Of a stretch of 40,192 nt of DNA, positions 24,592 to 30,985 are shown in pieces. The notes beneath the pieces are model-generated. The model was not told the origin of the DNA. It worked only from the letters and a program-made list of their open reading frames with translations, and ran no database searches. Each line of letters starts with the position of its first letter. Position 1 is the first letter of the stretch. Source of the DNA: Candidatus Acidiferrum typicum (lineage in GTDB: Bacteria; Acidobacteriota; Terriglobia; Acidiferrales; UBA7541); the NCBI GenBank assembly GCA_025463055.1, contig JAOAPV010000002.1, positions 1 to 40,192 on the forward strand. Direction: 5' to 3'. A program made the translations under genes and the position numbers.

Positions 24592-25861
24592 TTAGGTTGA
24601 CTGCAGATTGATGTGAAGAGCTTTCAAGCCGCGCAGGCCTAGATTTTCTCTCCAAACGATCGGTGCCGATTCCAGAGCGATTTTTGGGAACCGTTTCAGC
24701 AGTGTGCCAATAGCGATTTGCCCCTCGATGCGTGCTAAAGGTGCGCCAAAGCAAAAATGCGCGGCCCAGCCGAAGGCGAGATGGCGATTATCCTGGCGCG
24801 CGAGATCGAGGCGGTTTGGATCCGGGAAACGCTCGGGGTCGCGATTGCCGGCCCCCATGACGGCGATCACGGCTTGGCGCTTGCGGACGGCTTTGCCGCC
24901 GAGTTCCACGTCTGCTGGCGCCAGACGTGCGGTGTGCTGGCTCGGACTTTCGTAACGTAGCAGTTCCTCGACAGCAGAGACGATCAAATCAGGATGATTT
25001 CGCAGGCGCTGCATTTCGTCGGGATGGCGCAGCAGTGTGAGTACGCCATTGCCAATGAGATTGGTAGTGGTCTCGAGACCGCCGACCAGAGTGATAATGC
25101 AGTTGGCTATTATTTCTTCTTCGGTCAGGCGATCGCCTTCGAGTTCGGCCTTCACGAGCGAATGCACCAGGCCTGGGCAAGGGCTCCTCTTCTGATCCTC
25201 CACCGCCTTGCGGAAAACGCGGTCAAGTTCTCGATGTATCGAGCATGCTTGGGATGCGATCGGGATTGTGCTGAAAGTTCCCGAGCATTTCGGCGAATTT
25301 GGCCGACCACGTCTTTAGTTGCAGGGCAAATTCAGTGGAAACGCCGAAAAGCTCCGAGGTGACAATCGCCGGGAGCGGCTCGGCAAAATCCGAGAGAACG
25401 TCCATGCGGCTATTGGCCGCGACACTGTCCAATAATTTGTCCGCGAGTTGCTGAATGCGGTCCTTCAAGGCGGAAACGCGTGCCGGCGTGAAGGCACACG
25501 CCGCAAGACCCCGAATGCGGCTGTGCGATGGCGGATCAAGAAAGAGCATCTGCTTGACCATCACCCGGGCAAGCGGCGTGAGCTTCGAGAGGCCGATCGC
25601 GCTGAGCTGTTCGGCAGTGGGCGTCCGCGCGGCAGAAAAATCACGCAGTACGGTGATTACGTCGGCGTAACGCGTGACCACCCACGAGTGTAGATAAGGG
25701 TCCCAATGGACGGGATCTTCGCGGCGCAGGCGCTCGTAAAGCGGATAAGGATCAGCAAGCACCTGCGGTTCGAGCAGGCGATAGAGGCTGAGCGGTGGTG
25801 CGGGAGCGGGCGCCAACAAGGATTCAGGGTGCCGAAGGCCGGAGGTCGTGCTGGTGCCCAT
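24592..25861 (-). pseudogene. Cytochrome P450, broken by a frameshift
   Basis: A P450 of roughly 420 residues if repaired. The first part (25861 to 25223) has the N-terminal fold (LEPQVLADPYPLYERLRREDPVHWD; FLDPPSHSRIRGL, the C-helix) and stops at TGA 25223-25225. The second part, in another frame (down to 24592), has the I-helix LVGGLETTTNLIG, the ExxR motif EELLR and the haem-Cys loop FGWAAHFCFGAPLAR. Joining at about 25225-25240 reads smoothly (LDT, then RELDRVFRKAVEDQ), as if one base was gained or two lost. Real mutation or sequencing error cannot be told apart here. The start overlaps the end of the NRPS gene by 38 bases. Likely role if intact: hydroxylation of a carrier-bound amino acid. 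Confidence 0.85.
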
Positions 25862-27743
25862 AATTTATACCTGCTGGCTCCTCGATAGTATGTTTGCCAA
25901 GCGCAAGGACACGATCTATTTCCGCGGAAATTGTGGAAATTGTTGGATAGTCGAACACGCTGCGGAGGGGGAGATCGATTTGAAACATCTGTTGAATCTC
26001 GCCGAGGAGTTGAGCACCCAGCAAAGAATGTCCGCCAAGGAGGAAGAAGTTGTCGCGTGGATTGACGGGGGCGACCTTGAGAAGCGCAGAGACGATGGGC
26101 ATCAGCATTTCTTCAGTGCGCGTGGGCCCCGAAGATATATGTCCATTCTTCAGGGAATTTGTAGAATCCGGTGTAGGGAGAGCTGCGCGATCTACTTTGC
26201 CATTTGTGGTGAACGGAAACGAGTCTAGGACCACAAACGCGTTGGGAATCATGTAATCAGGCAGCTGAGACTGCAAGTGTTTGCGAAGGTTGGTTGCGCT
26301 CACTTCGGCGCCCGGCTTGAGAACCATATAGGCGGCGAGGAAATGATTGCCTGAAAGATCTTTGATTGGAACGACGATGCCCGATTGAATGGCGTCGTGT
26401 TTGCACAGCGCCGCGCAAACCTCATTCGGTTCGATACGGTATCCCCGGATCTTGATTTGGTCGTCCGTGCGGCCGAGGAATTCGAAGCTACCGTCTGGGA
26501 GCGCGCGTGCAAGGTCACCGGTCCTGTAGAGGCGGGCGTCGGCACTCTTATCGAATGGATTTGGTATGAATTTTTCGCGGGTGAGTTCGGGATCGTTCAG
26601 ATAACCGCGCCCGACGCCAGCTCCGGCAATGTGCAGTTCGCCAATCGAGCCAGCGGGAACCTGTTGTAGTTCTTCGTCAAGAAGGAAAATCTGGGTGTTG
26701 GAGATTGGGCGTCCCACGGGCGGGAGCGCTGCGGGTCTCTGATTGGGAGTGACGGCTCCGGAAAGTGCTACGACCGTGCATTCCGTTGGGCCGTAATTGT
26801 TTACGAGCGTGAAGGGCAGGCCATCAGGTGGATATTGCTGAAGAACATCCGCGCCCGTGAGCAAAAAGCGCAAAGACGTTTCCGTGGGCCATTCGAGAGA
26901 GATGAGCCGCTGTGCGATTGGTGTCGGAACGAAGCTGACGGTGATGCGCTGCGCAAGCATCCAGTCCCGCAGGCTTCGCGGTGATACTCGAGTTGTCTCT
27001 GGCGGAACGCGGAGACTGGCTCCCGCCGAGAGGTACGGCCAGATCTCCCAGACGGCGGCGTCAAAGCCCGGGCTCGCAAGCATAGTGGCACGATCAGAAC
27101 TGGAGACCGCGAAAGCGCTTTGATGCCAGTGGACGAGGTTTAACAGATTGCTGTGCGTTATCTCAACTCCTTTGGGACGCCCTGTGGACCCGGACGTGTA
27201 AATCACATAGGCGAGTTCCGACGGTTGATATGAAATGGGCAGTGGTGCGGATGAATAACCACGCAACAAAGCATAGCGATCAGAGATATCCACCTGTTTC
27301 GTTGTTTTCTGCGAAACTTCGATATGCGAGGCCGCACCACTCCGGATAAGTATCGGGGCCCGAGCATCTTCCAGGATGAGGCGAATCCGTTCGGGTGGGC
27401 TGGATGGGTCGAGGGGAAGATAGGCGGCCCCCGCTTTCCATGCGGCCAGAGCAGCGATGGCAAACTCGGGCGAGCGCTCGATGACAAGGGCAATGAGTGT
27501 CTCGCGCGTTGCGCCGAGTGATTGGAGATGACGTGCGAGGGCGTTGGATTGCGCTTCAAGCTCGGCGTAGAACAGAGTTTCTGTAGCGGTTGCTATCGCG
27601 GGGGCGTTTGGATTTTCCGCGGCCCAGGCACTTACACATTGCACGAGCGACAGACGGGGTGTCTTCTTCGGGGGCAAAGAGAGCTTTAGGAATTGAAGCC
27701 ATGAAGAACCAAGCCGAGATTCATTGGACGAGAATGTGCTCAT
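25824..27743 (-). CDS. NRPS adenylation-carrier didomain, leucine-type code
   Basis: A 639-residue enzyme that activates an amino acid as the adenylate and loads it on its own phosphopantetheine arm. Adenylation domain about 30-525: YTSGSTGRPKG (A3), FDAAVWEIW (A4), NNYGPTE (A5), YRTGD (A7), NGKVDR (A10). Carrier domain about 540-615 with LGGHSLLG (Ser573). The ten substrate-pocket residues, by alignment to PheA, are D228 A229 W232 F271 L295 G297 N316 V324 V325 K516, which read DAWFLGNVVK, a known leucine code. No epimerase, condensation or thioesterase domain is fused. The ATG at 27743 follows GAGG. It lies between a free condensation gene and a P450, all on one strand. Confidence 0.92.
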   Translation of the reverse strand: MSTFSSNESRLGSSWLQFLKLSLPPKKTPRLSLVQCVSAWAAENPNAPAIATATETLFYAELEAQSNALARHLQSLGATRETLIALVIERSPEFAIAALAAWKAGAAYLPLDPSSPPERIRLILEDARAPILIRSGAASHIEVSQKTTKQVDISDRYALLRGYSSAPLPISYQPSELAYVIYTSGSTGRPKGVEITHSNLLNLVHWHQSAFAVSSSDRATMLASPGFDAAVWEIWPYLSAGASLRVPPETTRVSPRSLRDWMLAQRITVSFVPTPIAQRLISLEWPTETSLRFLLTGADVLQQYPPDGLPFTLVNNYGPTECTVVALSGAVTPNQRPAALPPVGRPISNTQIFLLDEELQQVPAGSIGELHIAGAGVGRGYLNDPELTREKFIPNPFDKSADARLYRTGDLARALPDGSFEFLGRTDDQIKIRGYRIEPNEVCAALCKHDAIQSGIVVPIKDLSGNHFLAAYMVLKPGAEVSATNLRKHLQSQLPDYMIPNAFVVLDSFPFTTNGKVDRAALPTPDSTNSLKNGHISSGPTRTEEMLMPIVSALLKVAPVNPRDNFFLLGGHSLLGAQLLGEIQQMFQIDLPLRSVFDYPTISTISAEIDRVLALGKHTIEEPAGINYGHQHDLRPSAP

Positions 27744-27845
27744 AGATTACGCGCCTCGAAACACCCGAAGTACGCGACCTCTGCTCCTTAATTAAGATTT
27801 ACTTCCAATCTAAACCCGTCAAAGAGCGATCGACCGCACAGCAGC

Positions 27846-29219
27846 TCAACAGACCATCGCACCAACCGCGAGATCACGGAGTCTGGCATCCGGATACTTG
27901 ACGACAGCCTGTAAGAGGTTGGCGTATTCACCGAGCATGCGCTGCATCGTGGAGGGATCAAACAGATCGGTGTTGTATTCGAATCCGATCTCCAGTTCAT
28001 CCTTCATTTCGACGAGCACGCTCAAGTCGAATTTCGACGTGGCGGTATCGACCTGAAAGCGGCGAAGAGTCAATCCGGGCCAATGAATTTCGGGCATCGG
28101 ATAGTTCTGCAAAACGAGCTGAATCTGGAACCAAGGAGTACGATTCGCGCTTCGTTTGGGGCGAAGATGGCGGACAACTTCGGAGAACGGCACCTCGGGA
28201 TGAAGAAAAGCCGCCAGGGCGGTTTCGCGCACACGGCTCAGTAGTTCGAGGAATGTTGGATTGCCGGATACGTCGCCGCGAACGACGACCATGTTTATAA
28301 AACATCCGATCAGGGGCTCGAATTCTGGGCGGGACCGGTTGGCTACCGGTACGCCGACTACGATCTCGTCATTGCCCGAATACGTCTGCAAAAGCGTCTG
28401 CAGCGCAGCCAGCATAACCATGAAGGCAGTCGCCCGGCGTAATTGACCGATCCCGACAAAATCGGCAAGCGCGGAAGCAGCGAGAGTGGTTCGAACAGTG
28501 GCACCGCCAAAGGTTTGCTGGGCCGGCCGAGCACGGTCAAGCGGAAGACATTCGGAAACGCCTATGCCGTCGAGTTGTTGCCTCCAGAAAGAAAGGCAGC
28601 GTTCGCTTACGACACCGTAAAGAAGGTCGCGCTGCCAACGTGCGAAATCCGCATATTGCACTTGCAGACGTGGGAGGTCGCTCCGCGTCCCGCGCACGAA
28701 GGCCAGATAGGCTTCCGATAGCTCTCTCAGCAACACGCCGACCGACCAACCATCGGAGGCGATATGATGCATGGTAAGCACAAGCACGTGTTCGGTATCT
28801 GACAAGCGCAGCAGAGCGCCGCGAAGCATCATGTCCTTTCCGAATCGAAATGGCCGACGAGCTTCGGCATTGGCGGCTTCTTGAATCGCAGCCGGTTTCT
28901 CAGACGGAAGTAGATGGGAAAGGTCGACTATTAGGAGCGAACTCTTGCTCGGTGGTCTGACAACGATCGCTGGTTCACCATGATCGAAAACAAAAAGAGA
29001 GCGCAAGACCTCGTGCCTAGAAATAATTAGGTCGATACTACTTGCAAGGGCTTGGCGGTCTAGGTGCCCTTGTATTGTGAACGCGATCGGAACGTTGTAA
29101 ACGGCGCTGTTGGGGACGAGCTTGTCCCAAAAGAGCATCGTTTCCTGGGCGAAGGAGAGGGAAATCTCTGGCGCGGTCGGGCGCGGGGAGCTGGGCGGGA
29201 CTTCAGAGAAGAAGGACAC
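27846..29219 (-). CDS. Free-standing NRPS condensation domain
   Basis: A 457-residue protein that is a single complete condensation domain, the unit that forms the amide bond between two carrier-bound substrates. The catalytic motif is HHIASDGWS (His151, His152, Asp156). Other conserved parts are LSFAQETMLFWDKL (C1), RHEVLRSLF, YADFARWQ and IGCFINMVVVRGD. It resembles LCL-type domains. The GTG start at 29219 has only a weak ribosome site. The A-carrier gene follows after 102 bases. As a free domain it must work in trans, joining an acyl or aminoacyl donor to the leucyl carrier, or releasing the product onto an acceptor. Confidence 0.9.
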   Translation of the reverse strand: MSFFSEVPPSSPRPTAPEISLSFAQETMLFWDKLVPNSAVYNVPIAFTIQGHLDRQALASSIDLIISRHEVLRSLFVFDHGEPAIVVRPPSKSSLLIVDLSHLLPSEKPAAIQEAANAEARRPFRFGKDMMLRGALLRLSDTEHVLVLTMHHIASDGWSVGVLLRELSEAYLAFVRGTRSDLPRLQVQYADFARWQRDLLYGVVSERCLSFWRQQLDGIGVSECLPLDRARPAQQTFGGATVRTTLAASALADFVGIGQLRRATAFMVMLAALQTLLQTYSGNDEIVVGVPVANRSRPEFEPLIGCFINMVVVRGDVSGNPTFLELLSRVRETALAAFLHPEVPFSEVVRHLRPKRSANRTPWFQIQLVLQNYPMPEIHWPGLTLRRFQVDTATSKFDLSVLVEMKDELEIGFEYNTDLFDPSTMQRMLGEYANLLQAVVKYPDARLRDLAVGAMVC

Positions 29220-29576: not shown

Positions 29577-30791
29577 TTAAGATGCGTTGGTGGAAACATT
29601 TCCGCCGGATTCATTGAGCTTCAGTACGAGAACGCGGCCATCCGAGTGGAACGAGCCGCCGGTTGCAGTTGTTGCTTCTTTAACTGGGTTCGCGGGAAGA
29701 GCATGGGCAACTTCGGTGACCAAGCCCGTTGCAATTAGGGTTTTTCCCACGTAATCACGCTCGAGGTCCACATCAGGATCGATTTTGTGCGTCAGACCGT
29801 CGTTGCGCTCGTCACGCTCGAAACCAATGTCGTGTGTAGCCGCGCCGACCCAGACCGTTTGTCCGTTCACCTGGAACGGAGCTTTCCACACACGCAAATG
29901 GTTGCGGGACGCCACTACTTTGATGGGTTCAGCGTGGGCCCAACCGTAATCTTGCGGCCGTCCGAAAAGGTAGAGTGGACTCATCGGCATCGTAAGGTAC
30001 GATTCTTTCGAAATGCTTTCGAGCACGCCGCGAAGCACTGTGGCGCGCACGTCGGCATCCACTTTAACCCATCCCGCAGCCGTGAAAATCTTTTGCATGG
30101 CGTCTTCTGATCCCAGAATCAGGAAATTAATCATGTCACCCGGATTATCGGATTTGTCCGCGACTCGACGCGGAAGCTTCGCGAATATTTTGGCATCTAC
30201 TCCAGAAATTGTTGCCACTTGGCGCGCCGGACGATACGCCGCACCTGGATCGGGTGCGTGGATATCGATGTGCACCGTATACGTGCCTTCGCCAATATCA
30301 TCGCTTGCTTGATTGATCCCGATAGCGAGGCGTCCGGCAACGGGAGCGACGAAATCGCGGTGCGTGCCCAGCAGAAAGGGCTGCGCAATTCCCGCATCGC
30401 CAAGGCGGCCGATGAGCGCTCCACGGCCCGCTCCGTTGAACGGCAGAATGCGCAACAGATCCTTGAAGCCGCGTGTAATACCCTCGGGTCCGTTGTCCTC
30501 CTTGGCGTCCGCATAGCGGAGCTTGCCAGTCGCGGTGATGACGATGTGTTCGCCCGGCTGAACATCAATTCCAGTATCCGACCAAGATTGTTCGCCGGTG
30601 ATTTGAACCTCCTGAGAAAGGCGCCGCTTCCCGGATGGAATAGCTCGTCCGTCTGACTGATTGCTAGACGTTACCGGATTGTCTTTCCGGACGAGTTGCG
30701 CCCCCAGCCGCGCAGGGCAGGCCAACGCCGTGTACACCGAGCAGAGGAAAAAAAGCTTGGCCAGCTTTGTCATAGGACTTGGACTTTTCAT
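29577..30791 (-). CDS. Exported protein with PA-IL-like and LssY C-terminal domains
   Basis: A 404-residue secreted protein with a signal peptide (KLAKLFFLCSVYTALACPARLGA). About 65-175 resemble the PA-IL/LecA-type sugar-binding beta domain (VQPGEHIVITATGKLRY, LIGRLG, FVAPVAGRLAIGIN). About 245-365 match the LssY C-terminal domain (WVKVDADVRATVLRGVL, YLFGRPQDYGWA, VWVGAATHDIGFE), which in other proteins is attached to a membrane phosphatase. The molecular role of that domain is not known to me. Start: ATG 30791, or ATG 30773, which would give a tighter signal peptide; neither has a good ribosome site. Confidence 0.75.
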   Translation of the reverse strand: MKSPSPMTKLAKLFFLCSVYTALACPARLGAQLVRKDNPVTSSNQSDGRAIPSGKRRLSQEVQITGEQSWSDTGIDVQPGEHIVITATGKLRYADAKEDNGPEGITRGFKDLLRILPFNGAGRGALIGRLGDAGIAQPFLLGTHRDFVAPVAGRLAIGINQASDDIGEGTYTVHIDIHAPDPGAAYRPARQVATISGVDAKIFAKLPRRVADKSDNPGDMINFLILGSEDAMQKIFTAAGWVKVDADVRATVLRGVLESISKESYLTMPMSPLYLFGRPQDYGWAHAEPIKVVASRNHLRVWKAPFQVNGQTVWVGAATHDIGFERDERNDGLTHKIDPDVDLERDYVGKTLIATGLVTEVAHALPANPVKEATTATGGSFHSDGRVLVLKLNESGGNVSTNAS

Positions 30792-30985
30792 CAAGGGAAC
30801 CGGCTCACATTAAACAGATGCTCTGAACGAACGCAAGTGTTGCTAAATGGCATCGTGAATAGGTATCCTCGCTTCCTTGACTCACCGCCGCAACGCCTTG
30901 TATGTTGACAAGATGCAGGGTCTTACCGACAAAACCCAGACGGCACGCGGTACCCACGCAAAGCACCAGCTCCCAAACGGATTCC

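Follow-up and report, generated by a model that had tools for sequence, protein, structure and literature searches.

On the level of sequence we could show that a stand-alone adenylation-carrier (A-T) didomain with a leucine code is coupled to one clade of P450 enzymes and is kept together with it in relatives titled as several phyla. This cross-phylum cassette is the better finding; the locus in which we noticed it, within a window of 40192 bases that comprises a whole contig, is a modest one when taken alone. It is possible, though short of likely, that the cassette has a single origin, combines the leucine A-T with a BioI-like P450, goes without MbtH at least in the genome carrying the window, has spread over several soil phyla and feeds oxidised leucine to very small NRPS lines, the window holding a decayed copy. 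The products would then be widespread uncharacterised (acyl)-hydroxyleucine-Gly/Ser dipeptides. If true, a leucine cassette with fixed code and a P450 near BioI would represent a portable route to hydroxyleucine and could mark small peptides in bacteria that have received little study, and the window would show how such a gene set may be pared down.

Gene content of the locus

Three minus-strand features internal to the contig were identified: a free condensation (C) domain, a stand-alone A-T didomain and a P450 in two frames (Table 1). Pfam matches, motifs and frame coordinates bear out the composition given in the initial annotation, with the P450 broken by one net frameshift. From the frame coordinates we also derived the gene overlap listed in the table and a spacing of 102 nt between the C and A-T genes. 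The A-T frame carries A and T only, without a fused C domain. Intact motifs were found in the carrier (GGHS), in the C domain (HHxxxDG, present as HHIASDG) and in the C-terminal part of the P450, where the I-helix ETT, ExxR and heme-cysteine signatures are present. By motif rules the C domain is LCL-like.

Table 1. Features of the locus, in window coordinates
Feature	Coordinates	Strand	Remarks
Free C domain, LCL-like (presumed)	27846..29219	(-)	457 aa; Pfam Condensation 333.6 bits
Stand-alone A-T didomain	25824..27743	(-)	639 aa; Pfam AMP-binding 256 bits, AMP-binding_C and PP-binding
P450, N-terminal part	25223..25861	(-)	overlaps A-T gene end by 38 nt; 57.8-68.9% identity with 20 relatives in the aligned region
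P450, C-terminal part, other frame	24592..25203	(-)	Pfam p450 83.8 bits; 61.9-75.0% identity to 20 relatives

Alignment at ten positions, which we assume to be those of PheA numbering, returned the pocket code DAWFLGNVVK, identical to the one first read from the sequence as leucine-specific. In two papers this code is termed a Leu-binding pocket (PMC7524897) and stands first among the commonest Leu/Ile/Val codes (PMC12283262).

The N-terminal frame of the P450 gave no Pfam match at E 0.001, yet P450 hits in NCBIfam and PDB. Homology to 20 relatives switches frame within a few dozen nt near 25.2 kb, and the window P450 therefore contains one net frameshift, which is either a mutation or an assembly error. 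Stop-free P450 frames occur in relatives, while the window P450 is split over two frames. The A and C domains look intact, which would be expected of a fresh lesion or an assembly error no less than of decay.

The genome carrying the window has a size of 5.33 Mb in 146 contigs at a completeness of 98.9%. It gave no match to MbtH (PF03621) and two P450 matches, the window P450 among them. From 43 window frames of at least 150 aa, 20 were taken into a Pfam scan, and neither a thioesterase (TE) nor a transporter was found in these 20; all three absences had been noted initially.

Conservation of the A-T and P450 pair

With the C-terminal half of the P450 as query, matches at E 1e-20 were obtained in 69 of the 299 genomes searched within the class. 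We fetched 20 loci from the better of these matches, a set overlapping with the larger one described below. In 18 of the 20 the carrier domain ended at most 400 nt from the estimated P450 start, and its frame included an A but no C domain. The two exceptions are L049, which is truncated by the end of its contig, and L061, whose A-T is on the opposite strand. An alignment scan of the P450 over 84,980 species, each represented by one genome, found 193 relatives, the best 80 of which were fetched. A carrier domain was located directly upstream of the P450, at most 400 nt from its estimated start, in 72 loci among these best 80 of 193. According to record title they belong to Acidobacteriota (48), Chloroflexota (11), Rokubacteria (5), Pseudomonadota (3), Actinomycetota (2) and Planctomycetota, Dormiibacterota and ANGP1 (1 each), spanning Acidobacteriota to Ktedonobacteria, Rokubacteria and Rhodospirillales. 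Metagenome bins make up most of these records, and the 72 also comprise named isolates such as Thermogemmatispora, Dictyobacter and Roseomonas. Eight loci depart from the strict pairing: L073 has a C domain in between, L070, L071 and L126 carry the A-T on the opposite strand, L108 has its closest carrier at a distance of 5.7 kb, and in L068, L109 and L127 no carrier was found.

In a tree including 76 well-covered A domains scoring above 400 bits, the window A among them, these were monophyletic against 112 further A domains from the fetched loci with a support of 1.0. The exact code DAWFLGNVVK occurs in 67 of the 76 and in 0 of the 112; the remaining nine show a gap or one or two changed code positions. 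Positions within the clades are weakly supported: the window A groups with the G028 type at a support of 0.49 and with the G028 and G205 types at 0.84, and the placement of the window P450 in its own tree has a support of 0.09. Distances of A domains and P450s co-vary over 73 loci (Mantel r 0.62), a value reached by 0 of 999 permutations, the largest of which gave 0.19. The divergence of the window A compared with that of the window P450 is unremarkable, with a mean identity of 0.507 (28 pairs) against 0.533 (sd 0.034, 1718 comparable pairs). Among control P450s of 47-53% identity 0 of 12 had an adjacent carrier or A domain, three of them showing low-scoring A-like matches (40-108 bits) at a distance of several kb and one having only about 270 nt of upstream sequence. 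In 19 of the 80 loci the P450 shares a single open frame with additional NRPS domains. Because of the pairing, the A clade and its code, the distance correlation, the controls and the shared frames, we consider A-T and P450 to be kept as a unit, the window pair with its overlapping genes included, as had been supposed from the window alone.

In L055, L057, L058 and the 19 loci the P450 lies in-frame with A-T or C-A-T, in some cases without a clear C domain between P450 and A. Tandem P450s of the clade were observed in L061, L068, L070 and L071; in L061, L070 and L071 the leucine A-T is on the opposite strand.

Known systems and proposed mechanism

Pairs of an A-carrier protein and a P450 are known from Streptomyces antibiotics, and Sky32 (skyllamycin) and Tem23 (telomycin) act on carriers of large actinomycete assembly lines without a dedicated A-T. 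According to PMC3578932, Qui15 of the echinomycin pathway hydroxylates tryptophan loaded on Qui18 and not the free amino acid. Qui18/Qui15 therefore resemble the cassette in that an A-PCP didomain protein is paired with a P450, but Trp takes the place of Leu and Qui18 loads only with the MbtH-like Qui5, whereas the genome carrying the window has no MbtH match. In polyoxypeptin biosynthesis PlyR is the P450 proposed to form beta-hydroxyleucine on a carrier, as in the cassette, whereas A and carrier are separate proteins in the PlyC/PlyQ/PlyR/PlyS system, PlyR is described as NikQ-like and release of the unit is proposed to depend on a discrete TE (PMC3943440). Sky32 and Tem23 are P450s that beta-hydroxylate leucine, the substrate of Sky32 being carrier-bound (PMC9321520). 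No paper about the cassette was found by title or abstract in the literature surveyed, which includes few subscription journals, and the available portions of PMC7524897, PMC12283262, PMC3943440, PMC9321520, PMC6497799, PMC7298704 and PMC3578932 do not describe it.

Since the known carrier-dependent P450s beta-hydroxylate a loaded amino acid, we infer a similar course for the cassette, and hydroxylation of carrier-bound leucine would thus rest on precedent. The A domain would adenylate leucine and load the carrier arm of the same A-T. While bound there, the leucine would be hydroxylated by the P450 together with outside electron partners, the beta carbon being the most probable site, and a C domain would then link it in oxidised form to a second unit. 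A small partner module would provide this unit in intact relatives, where a TE would free the product.

Using a sequence profile of the P450 clade, we found P450BioI (CYP107H1) and PksS to be the nearest solved structures among the best 60 sequence matches. A model of the P450 of an intact relative (mean pLDDT 87.7) had P450BioI solved with its acyl-carrier protein as nearest fold, by the narrow lead of Z 49.5 against 48.0 for CYP109A2. No NikQ- or Sky32-type enzyme was recognised by name among the best 60 matches by sequence and the best 50 by fold. BioI and CYP107/CYP109-like enzymes are the closest relatives of the P450, without a demonstrable affinity to the NikQ/Sky32 hydroxylases, so that sites of oxidation other than the beta carbon are conceivable. 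Profile and fold would fit the oxidation of a carrier-bound substrate, as P450BioI was solved with one, although a shared fold is no proof. The substrate of P450BioI is a fatty acyl chain and its reaction a C-C cleavage. By virtue of this nearest solved sequence and fold the cassette P450 might perform other chemistry on the leucyl-carrier, such as a P450BioI-like C-C cleavage, a desaturation or a hydroxylation elsewhere; we judge this quite improbable, as an identity of about 38% does not fix the reaction and the carrier-dependent amino-acid P450s in PMC3943440, PMC9321520 and PMC3578932 are beta-hydroxylases.

Small clusters in relatives and probable reduction of the window copy

Small clusters with the cassette are present within the genus. 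In G028 one run consists of A-T, P450, free C, C-A(Gly)-T-TE and a phosphopantetheinyl transferase, the TE on the last protein being detected by Pfam on its frame and the transferase adjoining; in G013 a run of A-T, P450, free C and C-A(Gly)-T was found. Both agree with the earlier proposal that oxidised leucine is joined to a further unit in a compact pathway. G205 shows the order C-A(Ser)-T-TE, phosphopantetheinyl transferase, A-T, P450. We take the codes of the partner modules in relatives to be Gly, Ser, beta-Ala and others. At least one further NRPS domain was present in the fetched stretch of 63 of the 72 cassette relatives, where a C domain was counted if it scored over 90 bits and a second A hit if it scored over 70 bits; a few of these A hits may not belong to NRPS. 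Relatives with the genes in a large multimodular cluster had been named initially as evidence against a minimal pathway; larger clusters were indeed found for most of the 72, but several clusters are small.

The order C, A-T, P450 in the window equals that of G205 minus the intervening A-T-TE part and the transferase, and the window copy is without partner module, release enzyme and phosphopantetheinyl transferase. With C-A-T-TE and C-T-TE relatives as queries, tblastn detected no trace of a lost module beyond the three genes, and it is the comparison with relatives that points to a loss. Because same-genus relatives hold small intact clusters, the window copy looks like a reduced set more than like a finished minimal pathway; we regard it as probably a reduced, and probably decaying, copy of the conserved leucine-oxidation cassette. 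With the P450 frameshifted and both the A-T-TE part and the transferase missing, no oxidised product would be expected from it, unless the frameshift is an assembly error.

Such an error is assumed if the three genes alone are to form a functional minimal pathway, in which hydroxyleucine would be condensed by the C domain with either a soluble or an acyl partner. Apart from the frame break of the P450 all motifs are intact, two phosphopantetheinyl transferase hits exist elsewhere in the same genome and compact sets do occur, namely A-T, C, P450 and phosphopantetheinyl transferase in L073 and A-T, P450 and a TE gene in the Ktedonobacteria-titled L074 and L139. We nevertheless hold such a pathway to be unlikely, and the claim that the window genes form a complete pathway found no support: the scanned window frames hold no TE, further NRPS domains accompany the cassette in the relatives counted above, and the closest relatives of the window C sit in C-A-T and C-T-TE proteins. 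In a tree of C domains the window C falls into a group of five tips (support 0.956) with the C of the G205 C-A-T-TE, of the L145 C-A-T and of the A-less C-T-TE proteins of L108 and L144, while the other free C domains listed for this tree fall outside the group. The finer branches are weak, with 0.16 for window C and L145 and 0.63 for these two and G205.

For the free C domains of G028 and L073 the best solved matches were Txo2 and Txo1, with SrfA C1 (8f7h) and CDA C1 (4jn3), which we take to be starter C domains, far lower. A starter-type (N-acylating) role of these free C domains is thereby neither supported nor excluded, acylation gaining no support either way. An origin of C and A-T by fission of a C-A-T gene was ruled out, because the A-T is stand-alone in the relatives as well.

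The A-T, and with it the P450, might also act in trans for a different assembly line encoded elsewhere in the genome. NRPS genes are present there on contigs C118 and C71, and C118 carries an A-T, a KS-AT-T-aminotransferase-C-A(Gly)-T gene and a free C domain, so that its PKS-NRPS ends in a free C. We consider this very improbable, given that C118 has its own stand-alone A-T with the different code DAFWLGGTFK and that no physical link between the contigs was found. The reduced copy remains our preferred reading of the locus.

Surroundings of the locus and of related loci

Housekeeping neighbours among the 20 Pfam-scanned frames encode succinate dehydrogenase-type subunits, phosphofructokinase, MreB, a penicillin-binding protein and a signal peptidase. 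Rfam gave no match in the window, and scans of the window for promoters and terminators returned counts close to those of shuffled sequence. A gene for an LssY_C protein (29577-30794) precedes the C gene in the same orientation, with a gap of 357 nt between the two. The protein was present in 34 of 36 genomes in a search of the genus, and wherever both it and the flanking TPR gene matched they were on different contigs, except in the genome carrying the window. The two short flank contigs of the close relative G022 showed no C, A, T or P450 match. A recent insertion between fixed neighbours was considered and dropped, as the genus gave no clean empty site.

Contigs C118 and C71 (L148, L150) contain two hybrid KS-AT-T-aminotransferase-C-A(Gly)-T genes, one of them with a TE. 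The A-less C-T-TE proteins are encoded at L144:3617-6034 and L108:2524-5100, and having no A domain their carriers must be loaded from elsewhere. Polysaccharide genes were seen near the clade P450 in L073 and L110, and in L108 and L109 frames of comparable size and order follow the P450. Near the clade P450 of L073 these are a Poly_export/SLBB gene and a glycosyltransferase, and near that of L110 a glycosyltransferase, a sugar transferase and Wzz/kinase-like genes.
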